The notes under the pieces: generated by a model | The model's database searches: none | Seen by the model: the letters and a program-made list of their open reading frames with translations, nothing else | Told to the model about the DNA's origin: nothing | Made by a program: the position numbers and the translations under genes | Shown here: piece by piece, positions 17,388 to 62,985 of the stretch | Numbering within the stretch: the first letter of the stretch is position 1 | Layout of the letters: each line of letters opens with the position of its first letter | Source: Vitis vinifera | Lineage: Eukaryota > Streptophyta > Magnoliopsida > Vitales > Vitaceae | Assembly: GCF_030704535.1 (NCBI RefSeq) | Contig: NC_081815.1 | Coordinates: 821,001 to 885,000 of the forward strand | DNA: 64,000 nt | Reading direction: 5' to 3'

Positions 17388-18195
17388 TGTTGTCACCTCG
17401 CGTATCCGATGGTCCACGTTGCTGCTATATGGATGGACACGTGATTCTCAACACACAAGGGGTTCTTGACTCAGTGGTTGCACCTGCAAAAGGCATCCGG
17501 ACAGGGTGTCCGGACGCACCCTTCGATGGTTTTATTAGCCATGGTGAGAAAGAGAGATATATAAATCAGTTGGCCTTTTTCTAGGTATCAAGAGGTTACC
17601 AGGAGATCTCCCTTTCTTCTTCGTGCGAAAGTATATATATCCAGCTTCAGGGGTACTGTTCCTCTCATTAATGGTGAGGAGATCTTTTCTGTTGTGATGA
17701 TGACAATAGGTGTTAGTAGGAACATTATCATCCTATGAATGGCTGTCAGAGACTATGGTAGGTGATGCGGCCGTCAGAGATCGTGGGAAGCGATTATGCA
17801 GAATGATCGTGGGAAGTGACTTGCTGTCACTTCCTCTTGTCTTCTCATTCTGCAGGTGATGGGATGTGGGCCATGGCTACTTGTTGTGATTGCGTGTAAG
17901 ACTCGCTTTACTTTAATTGACCATCCAGAAGATTTATATCCGGATGGCTCATGCTGACTATCCGGATGTGTTGTGGAGACTATCCGGATGTGTACGCTCT
18001 GCCAGCGTCGTTTGCTCTTCCTTGGATAGGAGAAGATGAAACGTCGTTTGCCTTTCCTTGAGGCGGTCCGGATAGGATAACTGCACCATGCATATCCTTA
18101 GGGGAATCCGGATGATGATGGTCCGACTGATAACACGTGCCACGCGTCACTATGAGCTGCGTGCCACGTGTTTCCCAAGGGGAGGGGTCCCTACA
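17388..18195 (-). repeat. 3' LTR (left copy) of the Ty3/gypsy element
   Basis: Direct copy of 27,073-27,878. On the plus strand it runs TGTTGTCACCTCGC ... GGGGTCCCTACA. It contains several CCGGA-rich short motifs (ATCCGGA, TCCGGAT) typical of this element. Confidence 0.96.
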
Positions 18196-18197
18196 TT

Positions 18198-18210
18198 GCC
18201 CCCCTTTTTA
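18198..18210 (-). other. Polypurine tract of the LTR element
   Basis: On the minus strand AAAAAGGGGGGC lies 2 bp upstream of the 3' LTR, where plus-strand DNA synthesis is primed in this class. Confidence 0.8.
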
Positions 18211-18423
18211 ACTTGCCTATTTTGCCTAAAAAATGGGCGGGTTAAAAATAACTGGCTTTTGAAAACTGAAGAAGTCCCTTCGTCTGACTGGGCCACGTGG
18301 CGAGTGGGGGTGCGGAAGCCAAAAAGGCATTTATGACGAGCCGCCGACCCTGCGTATCCCCAGACAATATGTCGTTTCAATGATAACATGGCTGTTGGTT
18401 TGGCTTTCCGAGGGGCTGTCCTG

Positions 18424-18433
18424 CTATAAATAG
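18424..18433 (+). promoter_or_regulatory. TATA box for the antisense gene inside the LTR element
   Basis: CTATAAATAGGG is a textbook plant TATA box on the strand opposite gag-pol, 470 bp before the ATG at 18,901 and 230 bp inside the element from the left LTR. A pyrimidine-rich leader follows. It suggests that the antisense unit has its own promoter and does not use the LTR. Confidence 0.6.
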
Positions 18434-18900
18434 GGTACTGTACCTCTTTTTGTATTTTTTCCTACTGCATTCTCTTGAGAGTCTTTCTTCTTACTGCTTT
18501 TTCTACGCCCTTTGCTTTTCTGAGAAAAAAACTCCGAAAGCTCTTTTGTACCAGTGCTTTTGTATCGCGACTTTGTTGGTTTGCTGCTGGTGATTTTGTA
18601 TCAAGGCGGTACCCGTTCTTCTTCTTCGGTGCTGTATTTGGTACGTATCTCTTTGCTACTGCCGTTCCTTTGGTTGCGTTTGCTGGTTCTTTACACTTGT
18701 TTTCTGGCTTGCTTGGGCATTGTTTTGGACGAGTCGTTTGCAATTGTTGTTGAATGTTGGTACTTTGTTGTTGTTTGGAGGGGTTTTTGAGGGGTTTTTC
18801 TGACGGCTTTGAGTTAGGGTTTGTGTATTTTCTGATTGCTTGGTCTGAACCGTTTGCATTGTTTTTGCGTGTAGATTTTGCTTTGGCTTTGTGGTAAGAA

Positions 18901-21329
18901 ATGGCTCCAAAAAAGACTGCTTCGTCTGTCCGGGTCAGCGAGGCTGGCGAAAAGGCGATAGATAAACTAAATGCGAAGGAGTTCCGGGAGCGATTCCGCA
19001 TCCCCCATGACGTATTGATAGACCTGGTGAACGAGGAGGCGGCTATGCCTACTGAGAAAGGTGGAAAAAACGCTATCCTCTTCACAAAGGAACAATTCAA
19101 CGCGGGGCTCCGGTTCCCTCTGCCAGCCTTGTTCAAGGAATTCCTCCACTTCTCTCAGATTCCACCCATCTTCATTCATCCCAACCTTGTCCGGGTGCTG
19201 ATGGGATGCAACATTATCAACATGCTGTACAGCCTCGACCTTACGCTACTGGAATTGTTCTTTGTCTATTCCCTGAAGAAAGCAAAGAATGATATCTTCA
19301 GTGTGTCCGCTCACCTGCCTTCCCTTCAAATGGTGACAGAACTGCCAGATTCGACAAAGGGAGGGGTGAAGGGGCTGGTAGCAGTCTGGGGTGGATGGGC
19401 GGGGCTATCGTAGCATCCGTCGAGGCCTTTTTCTCCGAATTATAGCTTAAAAATTCCGGGTAATCTTGTTTTGCGATTTTTTATCCGGATTTTGCTTTGC
19501 TGATTTTTTCTGATTTTTCCGGACAGAATTCTCACCTTTTGTTGCTGACAATGCAGGTTTGGAATTGAGGGGCCACCTTGTGGATTGGGTGGAAAAGGCG
19601 TCATTTGCCTGCGTCTGCAAATTATTTGAAATAGACCCCAAGGAGAGGGCCTACAAAACATTGCTTTCCGCGCGGAATTTGACAGAGGTCGTCCGGGAGC
19701 CCCAGGAATATGTTATCAATATTCTTCCTAGGAAACTGGCAAAGGATGAGATAGTGCCTGGGGAGCATTATACAGTGAAGGAGCTCCCCCTCTATCAGGA
19801 AGCTAAAGAGGCTGACGCTGAAAGGCGGCGAAAGCTCCTGGAGGATAGAGATCAGAAAAAAACTGAAGGCACTATCCGGAAGGCTCCCGGACAGAAGGGG
19901 GGGCCGGACCCTCCTTCAAAGAAAATTCCAGGCAAGAGGGAGAAGCTAGTGAAGAAGCATGGGAAGGATGTGAAGGAACCCACTCCTCCCAAAGAGTTCC
20001 CTCCTCCCCAAACTACCTATGAGAGGGAAGTAATGATAGAGGATCCAGTAAATGCTGCTCCGCACTCTATCTCAAGCGGCCCCGGACGCATGTCGGGGTT
20101 GAATCACTCAGGTCCTTTCTTGGTCGCGGCTGCGCGTCTGGCTAACGTGGCTGAGGAAGCTGCATCTATCAACCGTCCGGGCAACCTTAATCCGGATGCT
20201 GATGCAGCTGAAACGGCCCCGTTGGAGGAAGCGGGAGCAGAAAGCCAAAGTCAGCCTTCCGACGATCCGGATCGCCTGGCTATAGTCCTGGTGAAAGGGC
20301 CTCCCCTCAAGAAGCCGCGTTTGACGCGCGATCTACAGTCCGGACTCTTTGAGCGGCTTCAAGAGCGGCAGCAAGAGATTGAAATTAGCTGCGCTTCTGC
20401 CCATGACGCTCATCCGGATGGAGGCGAGGTGGAGATGGCTACTGAGACCTCAGCCGCTCCGGCAATAATTCCGGCTGAGGATGCATCCGGACCTATGTGC
20501 CCGGACGAAAATATGGGGGCTCCGATTCCGGGACACGAGCTACCCTCTCCTTCCTCATCCGAGGAGGAATCTGCTGATGATGCCGCTCCCGCTAGCCCTT
20601 TCAGCTACGCGGAGTTGGAAGCTAAGTTAAAGCAGATTACTCCTGACTGGAAAGCCATCAAGCCCTCTGCTAAGATGTTTGATATGATAGAAACGGTACA
20701 CCGTTGTCTTGTGTTTTTGCTTTTTGACTTTTTGTTGCACTGATGTGTTTGTTGTAGTATGATTTATGTTTTTGCTTTTCTTGTTTGTGTGTTAGCTGGT
20801 GAGGGGCCTCCGCAGCATGTCTCAACAACACGCTCTTTATACTCAGCTGCTGCAGACCGCAGACTATATGAGGACCTTCTCCTCTCGGCACCAAGAGATT
20901 GAAAATCAACTGCGTCTGAGAATGGAGGAGGCTGAGGCCAGTCTATCCACCATGCGAGAGGAAAATGAAGCCTTTCGGGTGGAGTTGGCTGAGGCAAAGG
21001 GTCGAGAAGAATCAACTGCGGGCCGTCTTCATGAGGCGGAGGGTGAGGCAGCCCGGCTAAGGGATGAATTGAGTCGACTCCGGACAGAAGTTTTGAATGA
21101 AAAGAAACAGAAGGAAGACTTGCAGCTGCGTCTGGATGTGCAAAAAGAGGAACTTGAACGGGAGTTTGCTGTGGAAAGGGAGGAACTTGCAGCGGATTAC
21201 CAGAGACAAGTGGATGATACATTTATCTTTGGGTATCGCTGCTGCATGAAGAAGAACGGTATAAAGCGAGATACCCCTTCAATTCCTCCAAGTGAAGAAA
21301 AGAAGCTCCATGAGAAACCTGCTCCCTGA
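18901..21329 (+). other. Antisense additional ORF region of the LTR element
   Basis: Open blocks on the strand opposite gag-pol lie at 18,901-19,413, 19,559-20,743 and 20,799-21,329. The first block (MAPKKTASSVRVSEAG...) contains FKEFLHFSQIPPIFIHPN, which I recognise as the kind of sequence filed as a 'putative gypsy type transposon' domain in plants. The second block is rich in K, E and P, like a disordered linker. The third is a strong heptad-rich coiled coil (EEAEASLSTMREENEAFR...). The spacers may be introns, as reported for antisense ORFs of this lineage. An AATAAA lies at about 21,426, just before the end of pol on the other strand, so the two units converge. The role of this protein in the element is unknown. 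Confidence 0.75.
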
Positions 21330-21467
21330 TAGTTTATCTCTTCTTGCAATTTTTCTGCTGTAATTTTTCCTTCTGCATATTTTTGTGGTCCGGATGTCTC
21401 TTTGTAATTTACATTTACTCATATCAATAAAACTTACTTCTTTCTCATTTGCACTTGTGTACACTTT

Positions 21468-24400
21468 CTACTGATAATACTGCTTTAAATTAAACACATT
21501 CCATGGTCTGAGTAACGGAGTGCCATCTAGCTTTTGTAAATGATAGGCTCCATTTTCATTTGCCTTAGACACTATGTAGGGTCCTTCCCAATTGGCTTGG
21601 AATTTTCCTGCGCCTACTTCAACAGTATTTTCAAAAACTTTTCTAAGTACTAGCGTACCATTTTTGAAGTTTCTGGGCCTGACTTTTCGATTGTAATGCG
21701 CTGATGCTCTTTGTTGATAATCTGCCATCCGGATGGATGCGCTTTCTCTGACTTCGTCTGCCCAGTCCAAATTTCTTCCTAGTTCCGTGTCGGCGTCTTT
21801 TTGCTTTGCTGCATCAGTTCGGATAGTAGGAAGACCTATTTCAGTGGGAATGACTGCATCCATTCCATATGTGAGGGCAAAAGGAGTATTTCCTGTTGGT
21901 CGTCCGGGTGTGGTTCGATAGGCCCACAGGACGCCGGGTAGTTCCTCCACCCACTTCCCTTTGGCTTGCTCCAGCCTTTTCTTCAAGGCATTGACTAGAG
22001 TTTTGTTTGTGGCTTCCGCCTGGCCATTGCTTTGAGGATAACGTGGCGTGGAGTATGAATTCCGGATATTCAATTCCGAACAGAAATTCCTGAATGCAAT
22101 GCTGTCAAATTGTGGACCGTTGTCAGCTATGATGATTTGGGGAATCCCAAAGCGGCAAACAATGTTCTTCCATACGAACTTGGTAACATCTTTATCTTTG
22201 ATGCTTGCATATGCTTCAGCTTCTACCCATTTACTGAAGTAATCAGTGGCGACAAGAAGGAATTTCTTTTGGGCGGGTGCTGCTGGGAGGGGTCCCACTA
22301 TGTCCATGCCCCACTGCGCGAAAGGCCATGGGCCTGAGACCGATTTTAATGCGACTGATGGTATATGTGGAATGGGAGCGTATCTTTGACATTTATCACA
22401 TTTTTGGACATATGCTGCCGCGTCTTTCTTCATTGTTGGCCAATAGTATCCTTGTGAATGAGCTCTATGTGCTAGGGATCGTCCTCCCGTATGATTTCCG
22501 CATATTCCTTCATGTAACTCAGCTAACACATACTGGGCCTCTGAATGCCCAAGACAGCGAAGATAAGGCCCTGTGAAGGATCGCTTGTACAGGTGCCCCC
22601 CAATCAGGGTGAAACGGGCAGCTTGCACCCGGATTTTGTGCGCTCGTTTAGGATCTTCGGGTAAAGTTCCTGTCCGGAGATATTCTACAATATCATGCGT
22701 CCATTCTTGATCATCCGCTTGGTCTGCTTCAATGGAGTTGCAAGTGGAATTTTCTGCGACAGAGGGATTGACTTGTACATGGATAGGCAATAGAATGGCT
22801 TCTCTGATGGGGAGGGAAGCAGCTATACCGGCCAAGGCGTCAGCGCGCCCGTTGTCAGCTCGCTTAATTTTTTCAATTGTCCACTCGGTGAATTGCTGTA
22901 AGGTGCTTCTTACTTTGGCCAAGTATCGCGCCATGCGTGAGTCCTTAGCCTCATATTCTTTCTGGACATGCCTTACCACTAGTTGCGAGTCGCTGTAGAT
23001 TCGGAGTTTGGAGACGGATAGCGCAAGAGCGAGGTCCAATCCGGACAGGATGGCCTCGTATTCTGCTTCATTGTTAGACGCGGAGAATCCCAGCCGGATG
23101 GCCTGCTCCAGATGTTCCCCAGTTGGGGACTGCAATAAGAGCCCAACTCTAGAGCCTGATGAGCGTGAGGCTCCGTCAACTCGTAGAGTCCACCACTCCT
23201 GTTCACCTGATTCGTGGTGCTGGTCGGGTCTTCGTGAATATTCGAGCACGAAGTCGGCCATTACTTGGCCTTTTTTGGATAATCTGGGTTGGAATTCGAT
23301 TCCAAATTCGCTCAATTCGATGGCCCATTGTAGCATTCGCCCAGTTAAATCTGGCTTGTGTAGAATGCTACGAAGGGGCTGGTCGGTCAGTACAATCACT
23401 GGGTGGGCTTGAAAATAGGGGCGGAGCTTTTGAGCAGCACTTCGAAGAGCTAAGGCTGTTAGCTCCATTTTTGAATACCTGGTTTCTACATTTGCCAAAG
23501 CTCTGCTGACATAGTAGACAGGTTTCTGCTCCTTTGGCGAAGGGCAGCGGAATAGAACGGCGCTGATTGCCCATTCTGAGATAGCTAAATACATATATAG
23601 CTTCTCCTTTGGGATGGGGCTGCTCAAGATGGGCGGATGCATAAGACAGTGTTTAATTCTTTCCAACGCGTTTTGGCAATTGTCCGTCCATCCCTGCGTT
23701 CCAGCTTTTCGTATTGCTAAGAAGAAGGGTCGCAACTCATCAGTGAAGCGGGCTATAAAACGTCCTAACGCAACGAGCTTGCATGTGAGGCCTTGTAACT
23801 CCTTTTTGTTCCTGGGAGGAGGTGTCTCCATGACTGCTTTGACTTGATCCGGGCTGACTTCTATGCCTCTTTGGCTAACCATAAATCCCAGAAATTTGCC
23901 AGCACTCACGCCAAAGGCACATTTGGAAGGATTTAGCTTCATGTCATACTTTCGCAAGAGGTAAAATACTTCTTGTAAATGGAGGATATGCTGCTCTCGA
24001 GTTTTGCTTTTAACCACGATATCGTCAATGTATACCTCGACCGAGCGGCCTATCAGAGGTTTGAAGATTTTAGTCATCAATCTTTGATACGTGGCGCCAG
24101 CGTTTTTGAGTCCGAATGGCATGACTTTGTAGCAATAGAGGCCGTGTGGCGTTATGAATGCTGTTTTTTCTTCGTCATCCGGAGACATGGGAATTTGGTG
24201 ATAGCCGGAGAAGGCATCCAAGAAAGAGAGCATCCCTTGCCCGGAAGTGGAATCCACAATTTGATCTATCCGCGGTAAGGGAAAACTGTCTTTTGGACAT
24301 GCATTATTGAGATTGGTGTAATCAACACAGACTCGCCATTTGCCCTCTTTCTTTGGTACCACTACTACATTTGCCAACCAATCCGGATAAGATACCTCTC

Positions 24401-24551
24401 TGATGAATCCGGCTTCCAACAATTTGTTAATTTCATCTTGGATAACTCTTTGTCTATCCGGGTGAAATCGTCTAATCTTCTGTCGAATGGGTCTGGCTGC
24501 TGGAAAGACGTTAAGCTTGTGAGAGGCGATAGAGGGATGAATTCCCTTCAT
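21468..24551 (-). other. pol region of the LTR element: reverse transcriptase, RNase H, integrase
   Basis: In minus-strand order: a reverse transcriptase with the YIDD active-site box (VEVYIDDIVVKS), a first RNase H region, a second archaeal-type RNase H (VDGASRSSGSRVG... YSDSQLVV), an integrase zinc finger (HTGG... CDKCQ), and a catalytic core containing WGMDIVGPLP, ATDYFSKWVEAE, DNGPQFDS and SNGQAEATNK. The two RNase H regions are characteristic of the Tat clade of Ty3/gypsy elements. Described as part of a fossil element only. Confidence 0.93.
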
Positions 24552-24731
24552 ATCCGAATGTGTTCATGCGAAGATGTCATGGTTACTTCGAAGGATATTC
24601 TATATGCTCTGGGTTTCTTCTTGTGTCATGAGGGAACTGATGTTTGTGAGGTGATCATTCTCTTCTGAGATTTGGATTGTTTGTAAGGGATCTGCTACCG
24701 GGGGATCCTTGTCCACCAGACCCAATAATTG

Positions 24732-27000
24732 CTATTGGTCGCGCGCAATGCTAGGTTCAGGGGGAGATGCATCCTCCTGGTTAGCGACTGCTTCACGTGC
24801 TATTTGGTAGCACTGGCGAGCGGCTAACTGGCTGCCATACAAGTCAGTTTGCCCTTCATTGGTGAGGAAACTCACCATTTGATGATATGTGGAGGGGATG
24901 GCTTTCATGTAGTGAAGCCATGTGCGTCCCAAGATGATATTGAAGGGTGACAATTCTTGCACCACCGAGAATTGCACGTTGAGAGTGACTGGTCCAGCTC
25001 GAACCGGCAGTATAATGTCTCCTAAGGATGTTGTTGATGATCCGTTGAATCCAGATAAGATTCGTCCGGGGTTTTCGAGACCCGCGAGACTATGTCCCAT
25101 ATGGCCAATGACTGATGCTTGTACTAGATCGGCTGAACTGCCTGGATCAACCAAGATACGTCTTACATCAAAATCTCCTATTTCTAGAGAGAGGATGAGG
25201 GCGTCGCGATGTGGCTGTAGCGTCCGGGTGGGATCTACTGGTGGGAAAATGATTGTCCCATCTATGGGGCGAGGGCTCTCTCCAGTAAGACCCGGCCGGA
25301 TGGAATTAATGCGCTCGCGTATTGACGCGGCCCGCAGCAATTTCTGCCTTTTACGCCTGGAATCGTATTCCTCGTCAGACGGGCCCCCATTGATATAGTT
25401 TATCACAGCCTTAGGGGCGACTGGGGCCCTCGGGGCCTCAGAGTTATGATGCTGAGATACATCCCTTCCTCCAGTATCTGAGCGGAGGTACTGTTTTAAA
25501 TGTCCTGCTTTGATGAGCCTTTCAACTAGATATTGGAGGGATCGACACGTCTCTGTTGTATGACCATGGTCTTTGTGGAAGGCGCATTTCTTGCTGCGGT
25601 CTCTTATGGATGGGTCCGTTTCGAGGGGTCTAGGCCACCTGAAGTCGGACAACCCTTGGATCATTGGGAGAAGTTTTTCGTATGATACGGATAGGGGTGT
25701 GACGGGCGGCCTATTCGGACGACTCGGCCCGTCCTGTCTCCGGTCAACTGGTTTTGGACGGTCCGGAGGCTTGGCATGCCTGTCCGCGTTATCTCTAGAA
25801 GCCCGTCCGGCAACCAAAACTTGCTGAGTGGCTGCACGCACGTCATCTTCGAGCATTGAATATTTGTTAGCACGTCTGAACAAATCGTCCATCGTTGTAG
25901 GAGGCTTTTTTGCCAGTGATTCAAAAAATGGAGTGCCTGGACAAATGCTTCTCTTGAAGATTTGTAGGACAGCATTCATGCTGCAAACCTCTATTTGGAG
26001 TACGACTTGGCCAAATCGTTTCACAAATTCCCTCAAGGATTCGTTGTCTCTCATTTTTATGTTCTGGAGGGTGCTGATATTCTGCTTGTGTCGAGCAGAG
26101 CACAAGTACTGTCCCACGAATGCTTCAGAGAGGTCCCTGAAATTGTCAATAGAGTTAGGAGGTAGGCGATGAAACCATGAGAGGGCTTGCCCTTGAAGGC
26201 TGGCAGGGAATACTTTGCATAATAATGCATCGTTGCCAATATCGAGCGTCATAAGCTGTCGATAGTGCATGATGTGATTGAAGGGATCGTTGGTCCCATC
26301 GTATGTGGAAAACTTTGGTACGAGGAATCCTCTTGGGGGCTCGTAATGGGTGATATGAGAGCAAAAGGGCGTGGAGAGCATGTCATCCAGCCTTTTGCTG
26401 ATGAAGCCAATGGGTGGCTCGTTGGGAGGTTTCTCCCAGCTGGTCGTTCCGCTAGGTGTGAGTGAACGTTCCGCATCGCTGGGGTGACCATGGGGTCACG
26501 ATGCGGAGGTACGTTCTGCACCATGGGAGCGATCATAGGATCGGGGCGTGGCGCCCGGGTTGTGGCTGCTGGTGGCCTTGATCTCCCAGGCTCTTGTGGG
26601 CCTAGTCTTGCGCGCATAGAACTTGACAACTGTGATTTTCTATCACGCTGTCTTTTTGCTGAGAAATGAGTGAAATCTGAGCTTTCCTCACGAGGAGCTC
26701 GAGGCATGGGTGTGCGTGGCTCATGGGGCCTTGCGTTGTACGTTCCTGGGATAGCTCCTGTTGACCCAGGATATATTGATTCTGGCTCTGGCTTTGAGTT
26801 TGCCACCTGGCCTTTTGAGCGCTGACGACGAGGAGGTCCTGATGTTGAGGCTTGAATGCGTAACACAGCGTTTTCTTCCCTTAACCTCTCCGTCTCCTAG
26901 AGGAGAGCTTTTAGCTGTTTTTCGCTCGCCAACTGTCTTTTTTCGATGGCTTGACGCCATTCGTGATTATCTTCTTCCTCTCTACCAGATGATCGACTTT
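24732..27000 (-). other. gag-protease region of the LTR element
   Basis: Minus strand. The gag homology includes PKFSTYDGTNDPFNHIMHYR, ALSWFHRLPPNSI and NESLREFVKRF, typical of the plant retrotransposon gag domain. A nucleocapsid-like stretch (KKCAFHKDHGHTTETCRSL) follows, then an aspartic protease with VDPGSSADL. The N-terminal gag segment lies toward 27,000 next to the primer-binding site. Confidence 0.88.
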
Positions 27001-27072: not shown

Positions 27073-27878
27073 TGTTGTCACCTCGCGTATCCGATGGTCC
27101 ACGTTGCTGCTATATGGATGGACACGTGATTCTCAACACACAAGGGGTTCTTGACTCAGTGGTTGCACCTGCAAAAGGCATCCGGACAGGGTGTCCGGAC
27201 GCACCCTCCGATGGTTTTATTAGTCATGGTGAGAAAGAGATATATAAATCAGTTGGCCTTTTTCTAGGTATCAAGAGGTTACCAGGAGATCTCCCTTTCT
27301 TCTTCGTGCGAAGGTATATATATCCAGCTTCAGGGGTACTGTTCCTCTCATTAATGGTGAGGAGATCTTTTCTGTTGTGATGATGACAATAGGTGTTAGT
27401 AGGAGCACTATCATCCTATGAATGGCTGTCAGAGACTATGGTAGGTGATGCGGCCGTCAGAGATCGTGGGAAGCGATTATGCAGAATGATCGTGGGAAGT
27501 GACTTGCTGTCACTTCCTCTTGTCTTCTCATTCTGTAGGTGATGGGATGTGGGCCATGGCTGCTTGTTGTGATTGCGTGTAAGACTCGCTTTACTTTAAT
27601 TGACCATCCAGAAGATTTATATCCGGATGGCTCATGCTGACTATCCGGATGTGTTGTGGAGACTATCCGGATGTGTACGCTCTGCCAGCGTCGTTTGCTC
27701 TTCCTTGGATAGGAGAAGATGAAACGTCGTTTGCCTTTCCTTGAGGCGGTCCGGATAGGATAACTGCACCATGCATATCCTTAGGGGAATCCGGATGATG
27801 ATGGTCCGGCTGATAACACGTGCCACGCGTCACTATGAGCTGCGTGCCACGTGTTTCCCAAGGGGAGGGGTCCCTACA
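27073..27878 (-). repeat. 5' LTR (right copy) of the Ty3/gypsy element
   Basis: Direct copy of the left LTR, about 99% identical over 806 bp; every substitution I counted is a transition. It is followed at once by the GTATT target duplication. Confidence 0.96.
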
Positions 27879-32579: not shown

Positions 32580-34600
32580 TCAAAAGAAAGATAAAGATTG
32601 TCTAAAAAAAGATTTGAAGGACACGAAAAAATGAATCCTTAAAGATTTATAAGGTTTAAGAAATTTTGTAAGATGAATCTCTTGCATGTGTTTAGGATTA
32701 AACTGATTTTTATACACTTTTAATGCATTCATTTAGATTTAGGCGACATTTGTTTTTTTAACTTTTTACTGAAAGCAAATTGCTTTCAGATTTCAAATTG
32801 TTTATTTCTTCACTTTTTGTTAATTTATTATTTATTTAAAAAAAAATTTTATTGAATAGAAAAAGATAAAATATTTGATTTTTTTTTTTAAAGTTAAAAA
32901 TAACATTGGTTTTTGTTTATTTTTTAATACTTAATAAAAATGAAATATTAAAAAACAAACAACTTGAGTGCAATTGAAATCCCATATCAATATTAAGATC
33001 AATTTTAATAATATTTATAATGTCCATATAATTTTAAAACATATTTATACAATAAAAAATGGCCTACTATATATAATATGTTAGGAAAAGAAAATTTTTC
33101 TCCACAGAAGTCGAGTTTTACAAAATCCTACCACAAGTCAATAAAAAAAGAAAAATGTTTGACGTAAGTTGAGATTAGAGTTTGAAATTACAAGTAATGC
33201 AAGTGTAAAGTTTTCATTATGCATGTTTGTGCAATTTTCCTTAAATCTTGAAAGTCACGGATAACAAAATATGACCATAATCCACCAATTCATACACTAA
33301 AAAATATCTTCTATAGAGGGAATAGTCCTGAACCATAAAAAATATAGAGACAGGCCGGCCATGGGGTGGGTTCAATTATTATTGAGATCGCTCATGGGGT
33401 GAAACAATTTTATTCTATGCAACTTGATTATTGAGATGGTGATGGGGATAAAAGAAGGTCCACCCTTAATGTCAGGACAAAGAAGCATGTTGCCCATGAT
33501 TTTCTGAAAAGCTAAACATATTCTAAACAGTACTTCTTGCAAGCCCAAAGACACCAAAGTAGTGCATCAGAAGAGCTTGGAAAGAGGTGTTGGGTGCTAG
33601 GTCAATTTTTCGAATAGATCAAAAGAAAGCTAAAGATTGTCTAAAAAAGATTTGAAGGACACCAAAGGATGAATCCTTAAAGATTTATAAGGTCTAAGAA
33701 ATTTTGTAAGATGAATCTCTTGCGTGTATTTAATATTAAATTGATTTTCATACATTTTTAATGTATTCATTTAGACTTAGTTGACGCTTGTTTTTTTAAC
33801 TTTTTGTTGAAAGCAAATTACTTTTAGATTTTAAATCATTTATTTCTTAAATTTTTTTATTAAATAGAAAATAATAAAATATTTGATTTTTTCTTAAAGT
33901 TAAAAATAATATATTAGTTTTTATTTACTTTTTAATACTTAATAGAAATGAAATATTTAAAAACAAACAACTTGAGTGCAATTGAAATCTCGTATCAATA
34001 TTAAGATCAATTTTAATACCATTTATAATGTCCATATAATTTTAAAACATATTTATACAATAAAAAATGGCATACTATATATAATATGTTAGGAAGAGAA
34101 AATTTTTCTCCATAGAAGTTGAGTTTCACAAAATCCTACCACAAGTCAATAAAAAAAGAAAAATGTTTGACATAAGTTGGGATCAGAGTTTGAAATTATA
34201 AGTGATGCAAGTGTAAAGTTTTCATTATGCATGTTTGTACAATTTTCCTTAAATCTTGAAAGTTACGGATAACAAAATATGACCATAAGCCAACAATTCA
34301 TGCACTAAAAAATATCTTCTATAGAGGGAATAGTCTTGAACCATAAAAAATATAGAGACAGGGCGGACATGGGCTGGGTTCAATTATTATTGAGATCGCA
34401 GATGGGATGAAGCAGTTGTATTCTATGCAAACTTGATTATTGAGATGGTGATGGGGATAAAAGAAGATCCACCCTTAATGTCACGACAAAGGCATATTCC
34501 AAACAATACTTCTTGCAAGCCCAAAGACACCAAAGTAGTGCATCAGAAGAACTTGGAAAGAGGTGTTGGGTGCTAGGTCAATTTTTCGAATAGATTGAAG
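32580..34600. repeat. 1-kb direct tandem duplication
   Basis: Copy 1 (about 32,580-33,619) and copy 2 (about 33,620-34,600) run in parallel. Both start with AAAAGAAAGxTAAAGATTGTC, carry a MITE-like A/T block (near 32,750-32,975 and 33,780-33,975) and AACATATTTATACAATAAAA, and end with AGGTGTTGGGTGCTAGGTCA. Copy 2 is about 60 bp shorter. No gene is present. Confidence 0.9.

Positions 34601-59269: not shown

Positions 59270-62985
<3,716 letters not shown>

Follow-up and report, generated by a model that had tools for sequence, protein, structure and literature searches.

The antisense gene of a Gret1-like Retand retrotransposon in grapevine is probably laid out as a small spliced gene

A 10.5-kb Ty3/gypsy retrotransposon of the Retand type lies on the minus strand of a 64-kb stretch of Vitis vinifera DNA (the whole stretch analysed, hereafter 'the window'). 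Between its pol gene and its 3' long terminal repeat (LTR), a plus-strand gene runs head-on to gag-pol; it comprises three open blocks, preceded by a TATA box and followed by an AATAAA (Table 1). Comparison of this region with other copies makes it likely that it is a decayed copy of an antisense accessory gene of a Gret1-like Retand element, laid out as a small spliced RNA polymerase II gene. The three blocks are predicted to be exons of a single gene: two short introns, T-rich and of the GT-AG type, separate them, and the phase is consistent across both junctions. Such a spliced structure would explain the fragmented look of the antisense open reading frames (ORFs) of Retand elements, which are genes without established function, and the protein to study would be one 743-residue chain rather than several short ones.

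Table 1. Coordinates, in the window, of the predicted antisense gene and of the element that carries it
Feature	Position	Strand	Remarks
Putative promoter region, from 3' LTR/polypurine tract (PPT) to TATA	18196..18424	+	median identity 0.86 to 46 far copies (18196-18417)
TATA box TATAAATA	18425..18432	+	TATAAA in 74/74 copies
Putative 5' untranslated exon	18457..18640	+	start assumed ~30 nt past TATA; ends at best-conserved leader GT
Candidate 5'-leader intron, 234 nt	18641..18874	+	GT 73/74, AG 74/74
Exon 1, weak Transposase_28/TRP28 domain	18901..19459	+	open in 61/74 copies
Intron 1, phase 1	19460..19556	+	GT 73/74, AG 73/74
Exon 2, basic lysine/glutamate/proline-rich linker, motifs resembling a nuclear localisation signal (NLS)	19557..20695	+	open in 49/74 copies
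Intron 2, phase 0	20696..20795	+	GT 72/74, AG 73/74; T 57%
Exon 3, long helix that is probably a coiled coil; stop codon 21327-21329	20796..21329	+	open in 65/74 copies
AATAAA poly(A)-like signal	21426..21431	+	36 nt short of pol ORF end
3' LTR	17388..18195	-	aligned to 5' LTR; target-site duplication (TSD) GTATT
5' LTR	27073..27878	-	aligned to 3' LTR
gag (protease by eye only)	24732..26495	-	Pfam PF03732
pol: reverse transcriptase (RT), RNase H, additional RNase H, integrase	21468..24563	-	Pfam

The window copy was compared with 74 further copies from the same genome, of about 3.6 kb each. According to their identity to it over 19557-21329, these were divided into 25 near copies (at least 96%), 3 intermediate copies and 46 far copies (below 88%). 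Copies were chosen by exon-3 similarity, which biases the sample toward an open exon 3: of 149 other exon-3 places, all 46 at 69-76% amino-acid identity were taken, together with 28 of the 103 at 87% or more. These 28 lie at 93-99% exon-3 identity, and the range from 77 to 92% is outside the sample. The searches score the best candidates only, so that copy numbers are lower bounds and intact copies are favoured. Counted in this way and with the window included, exon 3 matched at least 150 places (130 of the 150 without internal stops), exon 1, up to the stop of the window copy, at least 150 (144 of the 150), exon 2 at least 108 (91 of the 108), and the promoter plus leader at least 40.

On the plus strand of the window, the open blocks extend over 18898-19413, 19514-20743 and 20796-21329. 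A previous analysis of the letters of the window, called here the sequence-only reading, had recognised three such blocks; they are present, but their limits had to be redrawn as those of exons split by introns, and a premature stop had been overlooked. This stop occupies 19411-19413 in exon 1, while the conserved frame runs on to the donor at 19460. The window copy is therefore decayed, and a full protein is impossible from it; copies with an intact gene exist elsewhere in the genome. The coding parts sum to 559 + 1139 + 531 nt, that is, 743 codons plus the stop. The T content of the two introns is 47% and 57%, compared to 20 to 24% in the exons. Read on the reverse strand, every exon is interrupted in all 75 sequences. 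Among the 25 near copies, 24 have an open exon 1 and all 25 an open exon 2 (in L066, a large deletion affects its end). In these same copies, the length of intron 1 varies from 97 to 175 nt; it departs from 97 nt in 14 of the 25, and for 10 of these 14 the difference is not a multiple of three. It is a poly-T tract within the intron that expands among these young copies.

The strongest sequence argument for splicing is the start of exon 2, which lacks Met and yet appears constrained. In the window, the first 158 full codons of this exon contain no Met; the same is true of 18 of the 74 copies, and 22 of the 74 have none in the first 41. The first 60 codons are nonetheless the most constrained part of the exon, with a ratio of nonsynonymous to synonymous divergence (dN/dS) of 0.14, a rough value because dS is there about 1.0, near saturation. 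Coding of this stretch should therefore come from an upstream exon. A lead on the age of intron 1 is provided by one copy, L001, a degraded relative that is 39% identical in exon 1: its reading frame breaks off behind the same Pro-Gly motif, with the phase unchanged, and is taken up again past an AG. Intron 1 may thus be older than the split of families about 40% identical in exon 1.

Of the two observations named beforehand as jointly speaking against the sequence-only reading, one was that the antisense frames evolve neutrally. Within this one genome, the comparison of near with far copies gave dN/dS values of 0.25, 0.25 and 0.19 for exons 1, 2 and 3, and 0.24 for the three together (300 random pairs); the antisense frames gave 0.16 within the near group and 0.29 within the far group. 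Differences common to at least five copies are distributed over codon positions 1:2:3 as 242:208:515. Private differences, found in a single copy, are nearly even (230:193:236), and arose mostly after insertion. As controls, the shifted frames of exon 1 gave 1.01 and 1.72 (200 pairs), and the final 51 codons of pol, read in the pol frame, gave 0.08. On these figures, the antisense frames do not evolve neutrally: the predicted antisense protein is under purifying selection, weaker than at the end of pol.

The signals that frame the gene are conserved as well. A TATA box near 18,424 and an AATAAA just before the end of pol had both been proposed from the letters of the window, and both were recovered in the other copies: TATAAA in every one of them, and AATAAA in 73 of the 74 when searched within a short stretch, or in 67 of the 74 by strict alignment column. 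The octamer TATAAATA alone is unremarkable (20 occurrences in the 64-kb window, compared to 7 expected); it is because they are conserved among copies that these signals are more than chance. The ATG at 18901 is present in all 74 copies. Median identity to the 46 far copies is 0.71 in the leader and 0.76 to 0.79 in the exons, compared to 0.86 in the promoter region. A third intron probably sits in the leader. Its candidate donor, GT 18641, is the best kept of 42 leader GTs (the next best, GT 18645, stands at 0.95), and its acceptor, AG 18873, is the best kept of 13 leader AGs (AG 18523 and AG 18478, upstream, stand at 0.97 and 0.96); the segment between them has about 48% T and is rich in indels. 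Conservation of the signals and purifying selection, within one genome, support what the sequence-only reading had called a self-contained unit from promoter to poly(A), real and coding for a protein.

The spliced product would have 743 residues, in which a weak Transposase_28 domain is followed by a linker of basic character and then by a long helix. When exon 1 peptides were compared with Transposase_28, 38 of 41 matched at E <=0.1, the best at 8.6e-5; DNA binding by this domain is presented as a prediction in the text of PMC11963269. The motif K[KR]x[KR], which resembles an NLS, is found in all 50 sequences with an open exon 2, the window included, and is only suggestive of a nuclear location. 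AlphaFold2, run on a single sequence, gave for exon 3 a single helix from residue 2 to 153 (about 150 residues, mean confidence score, or pLDDT, of 87). Its hydrophobic period is 3.5 residues, a value reached by 2% of shuffles, and exon 3 is a probable coiled coil. Profile searches against the PDB returned nothing with exon 1 (E up to 1) or exon 3 (E up to 0.01).

If the gene is indeed a spliced accessory gene, its own promoter would drive transcription from integrated DNA, independently of the LTR. The antisense transcript would be spliced, exported as an ordinary mRNA and translated, and would end at the AATAAA just short of the coding part of pol. The genomic RNA would be the complement, without these splice sites; because the genomic RNA is the opposite strand, the introns would persist through reverse transcription and outlast retrotransposition. 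The product would act in the nucleus and associate with itself; its TRP28 head may bind DNA, its basic linker resembles an NLS, and its tail would form a coiled coil. Such a protein would help the element in the nucleus, either by regulating its transcription or by guiding its cDNA; a nuclear helper factor is the most likely function, although this is uncertain. A more general proposal, to which we give an even chance, is that Retand genes are split by life phase: gag-pol would be expressed from the strand of the genomic RNA, and an ancient, host-like gene with introns from the other strand of the integrated DNA. Since antisense placement lets introns persist, introns would then be expected across the whole Retand lineage.

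Several observations weigh against a spliced gene under selection, or against parts of it. Of the 74 copies, 25 have a broken exon 2, and just 41 have an open frame in each of the three exons. The intron controls gave dN/dS values of 0.48 to 0.89 (200 pairs) instead of 1. Constraint is uneven: it is weak at the N-terminus of exon 1 (0.41) and missing from the first 7 codons of exon 3 (0.89), and the near saturation of dS mentioned above blurs the estimate for the start of exon 2, where some copies do have an early Met. The donor of intron 1 in L001 is GC, not GT. With two junction probes, no spliced, intron-less genomic copy was found among the best 40 candidates for each. Finally, the Transposase_28 match (PF04195, Pfam) in the window scores 15.2 bits, compared to a cut-off of 26.2, and AlphaFold gave no usable model of exon 1 (pLDDT 33), which leaves DNA binding structurally unsupported.

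Three other explanations were considered. The three antisense ORFs of the region could be separate and unspliced, with translation of each starting at an AUG of its own. Separate antisense ORFs of more than 600 bp are indeed reported in the text of a survey of such elements (PMC11963269), and exon 3 has a nearly invariant Met at position 8. We consider this improbable: the most constrained part of exon 2 is devoid of Met in the window and in the 18 copies counted above (several copies have an earlier Met), and the gaps between blocks hold conserved GT and AG, T-rich sequence and length changes that break the frame. Alternatively, the antisense RNA itself may be what matters, the protein being incidental: paired to the 3' portion of the genomic RNA, it would feed small interfering RNA or disturb reverse transcription. 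The overlap of the unit with the genomic RNA amounts to about 3 kb, and antisense control is described for Ty1 in part of PMC12786077 and proposed for plant elements in part of PMC7264820. However, the codon-position bias and the dN/dS of 0.24 require a protein, and the conserved AATAAA would stop the transcript before the coding part of pol. An RNA acting alone is thus unlikely, but both roles could coexist.

The last explanation is that a function of the sense strand is conserved, such as the 3' untranslated region of the genomic RNA or a packaging structure, with the plus-strand frames as a by-product. The region should be part of every genomic RNA, and the 220 bp next to the LTR are more conserved than the exons, which is compatible with a PPT or a packaging signal. 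Against this stand the third-position bias in the plus frame, the values of at least 1.0 in the shifted frames of exon 1, and the absence of open reverse frames in all 75 sequences, so that a sense-strand origin of the frames is very improbable.

Antisense genes at this position, and suggestions of regulatory roles for them, are already published (passages of PMC7264820 and PMC11963269). The closest is gene23 of Grande, from maize and teosinte, which is likewise antisense, placed between pol and the 3' LTR and part of the Tat/Retand lineage, with its own promoter and a nuclear protein; its antisense transcription starts from a promoter upstream of the gene (same part of PMC7264820). The idea of an own promoter, put forward in the sequence-only reading, thus agrees with the conserved TATAAA, but has this precedent and is not new. 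Beyond gene23 as reviewed, conservation here defines a TATA box, an AATAAA, two introns in the coding part and probably one more in the leader. The region also resembles the antisense TRP28 ORFs of Retand elements (Vicient 2025, PMC11963269), its 3.3 kb being within their range of 2.9 to 6.6 kb. In its available text, this survey treats the Retand antisense regions as ORFs and uses the word intron 0 times; here, the exon with the weak TRP28 domain and the one with the coiled coil would belong to a single gene. The literature searched, which did not include the main Grande paper (Gomez-Orte 2013), where splicing may be described, gave no account of introns in Retand antisense genes.

Plant LTR elements are generally intron-less, Ogre and EVADE being notable exceptions (2025 review, PMC12786077, in part). 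Both likewise have introns, but these serve the expression of gag-pol, whereas here they are on the antisense strand. Another parallel is HBZ of human T-cell leukaemia virus (HTLV), also an antisense accessory gene of a retroelement coding for a nuclear protein (parts of PMC7264820 and PMC11963269). The antisense promoter of HTLV is described as lying inside the 3' LTR (same part of PMC7264820). In the grapevine element, in contrast, the TATA box is internal, at about 230 bp from the LTR. HBZ is itself spliced; no homology is claimed between it and the grapevine antisense gene. We conclude that the kind of feature is known, while the conserved spliced gene structure appears to be new; its exact junctions can now be searched in existing grapevine RNA data.

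One of the far copies is a well-known element. It occupies C2:16271237-16281658 (copy L030, with L082 and L083), measures 10,422 bp with LTRs of 824 bp and a TSD of TGTGT, and lies 181 nt from the ATG of a Myb-domain gene. We take this gene to be MYBA1, as recognised from its protein and not via a database. Over 19557-21329, the identity of this copy to that in the window is below 88%. For Gret1, the published length is 10,422 bp, with LTRs of 824 bp (passage of PMC10249860). By its position at the Myb gene and these dimensions, the copy is Gret1, the white-berry insertion at VvMybA1. It has the same TATA box, ATG and splice dinucleotides; exons 1 and 3 are open, and exon 2 has one stop. Gret1 thus carries the same antisense gene. 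From the coordinates, its antisense TATA box lies about 1.2 kb from the Myb ATG and is oriented away from that gene. In passages of PMC9097378, Gret1 is said to be transcriptionally active, with no full-length transcripts given, and the paper never uses the word antisense; another grapevine paper, PMC9316115, deals with methylation in the part available, and passages of PMC9669667 add nothing further about Gret1.

The classification of the element rests on two features. Its pol has an additional RNase H between RNase H and integrase, an arrangement given as the criterion for Ogre and Retand in part of PMC6317226; the Pfam domains cover residues 69-228 (RT), 318-420 (RNase H), 462-578 (RVT_3), 673-729 (H2C2) and 747-843 (rve). 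In addition, 3.27 kb with the antisense exons separate pol from the 3' LTR (21467 to 18196), as in Retand, for which PMC11963269 gives the size range quoted above for this region with its antisense ORF; Gret1 served there as a Retand query. The TSD GTATT flanks the element on both sides. The two LTRs differ by 8 substitutions and one 2-base gap over 806 aligned positions. At substitution rates used for plants, this divergence of 0.010 corresponds to 0.4 to 2 million years. For the empty site, three neighbouring cytochrome P450 repeat units were tested: two align through it, one with GTATT and one with a one-base variant, and the third gave no alignment.

Some copies called for closer inspection. 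Two of them, with long frames (604 and 499 aa), were considered as spliced retrocopies and rejected, as intron 2 is kept and merely stop-free. Similarly, the near copy L066 was rejected as a case of intron 2 loss, its larger deletion having also removed the end of exon 2. Four near copies have frames of 621 to 627 aa spanning exons 1 and 2; the two examined retain intron 1, of 123 and 129 nt. In the near group, dS is about 0.10 to 0.12 in exons 1 and 2, compared to 0.03 in exon 3, and their leaders share 99% identity with that of the window copy; this suggests that the near copies are mosaic (recombinant).

Around the element, the window contains a tandem array of five related units (15.2-17.3k, 29.8-31.5k, 36.3-38.5k, 41.0-43.4k and 45.9-48.3k). 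The first unit holds a cytochrome P450 gene (Pfam), and the element lies about 360 bp downstream of that gene. A direct repeat of 300 nt, 87% identical, is found at 32812-33111 and 33820-34119, 1,008 bp apart, and an imperfect inverted repeat at 61699-61929 has 114-nt arms, 82% complementary, with a 3-nt gap.
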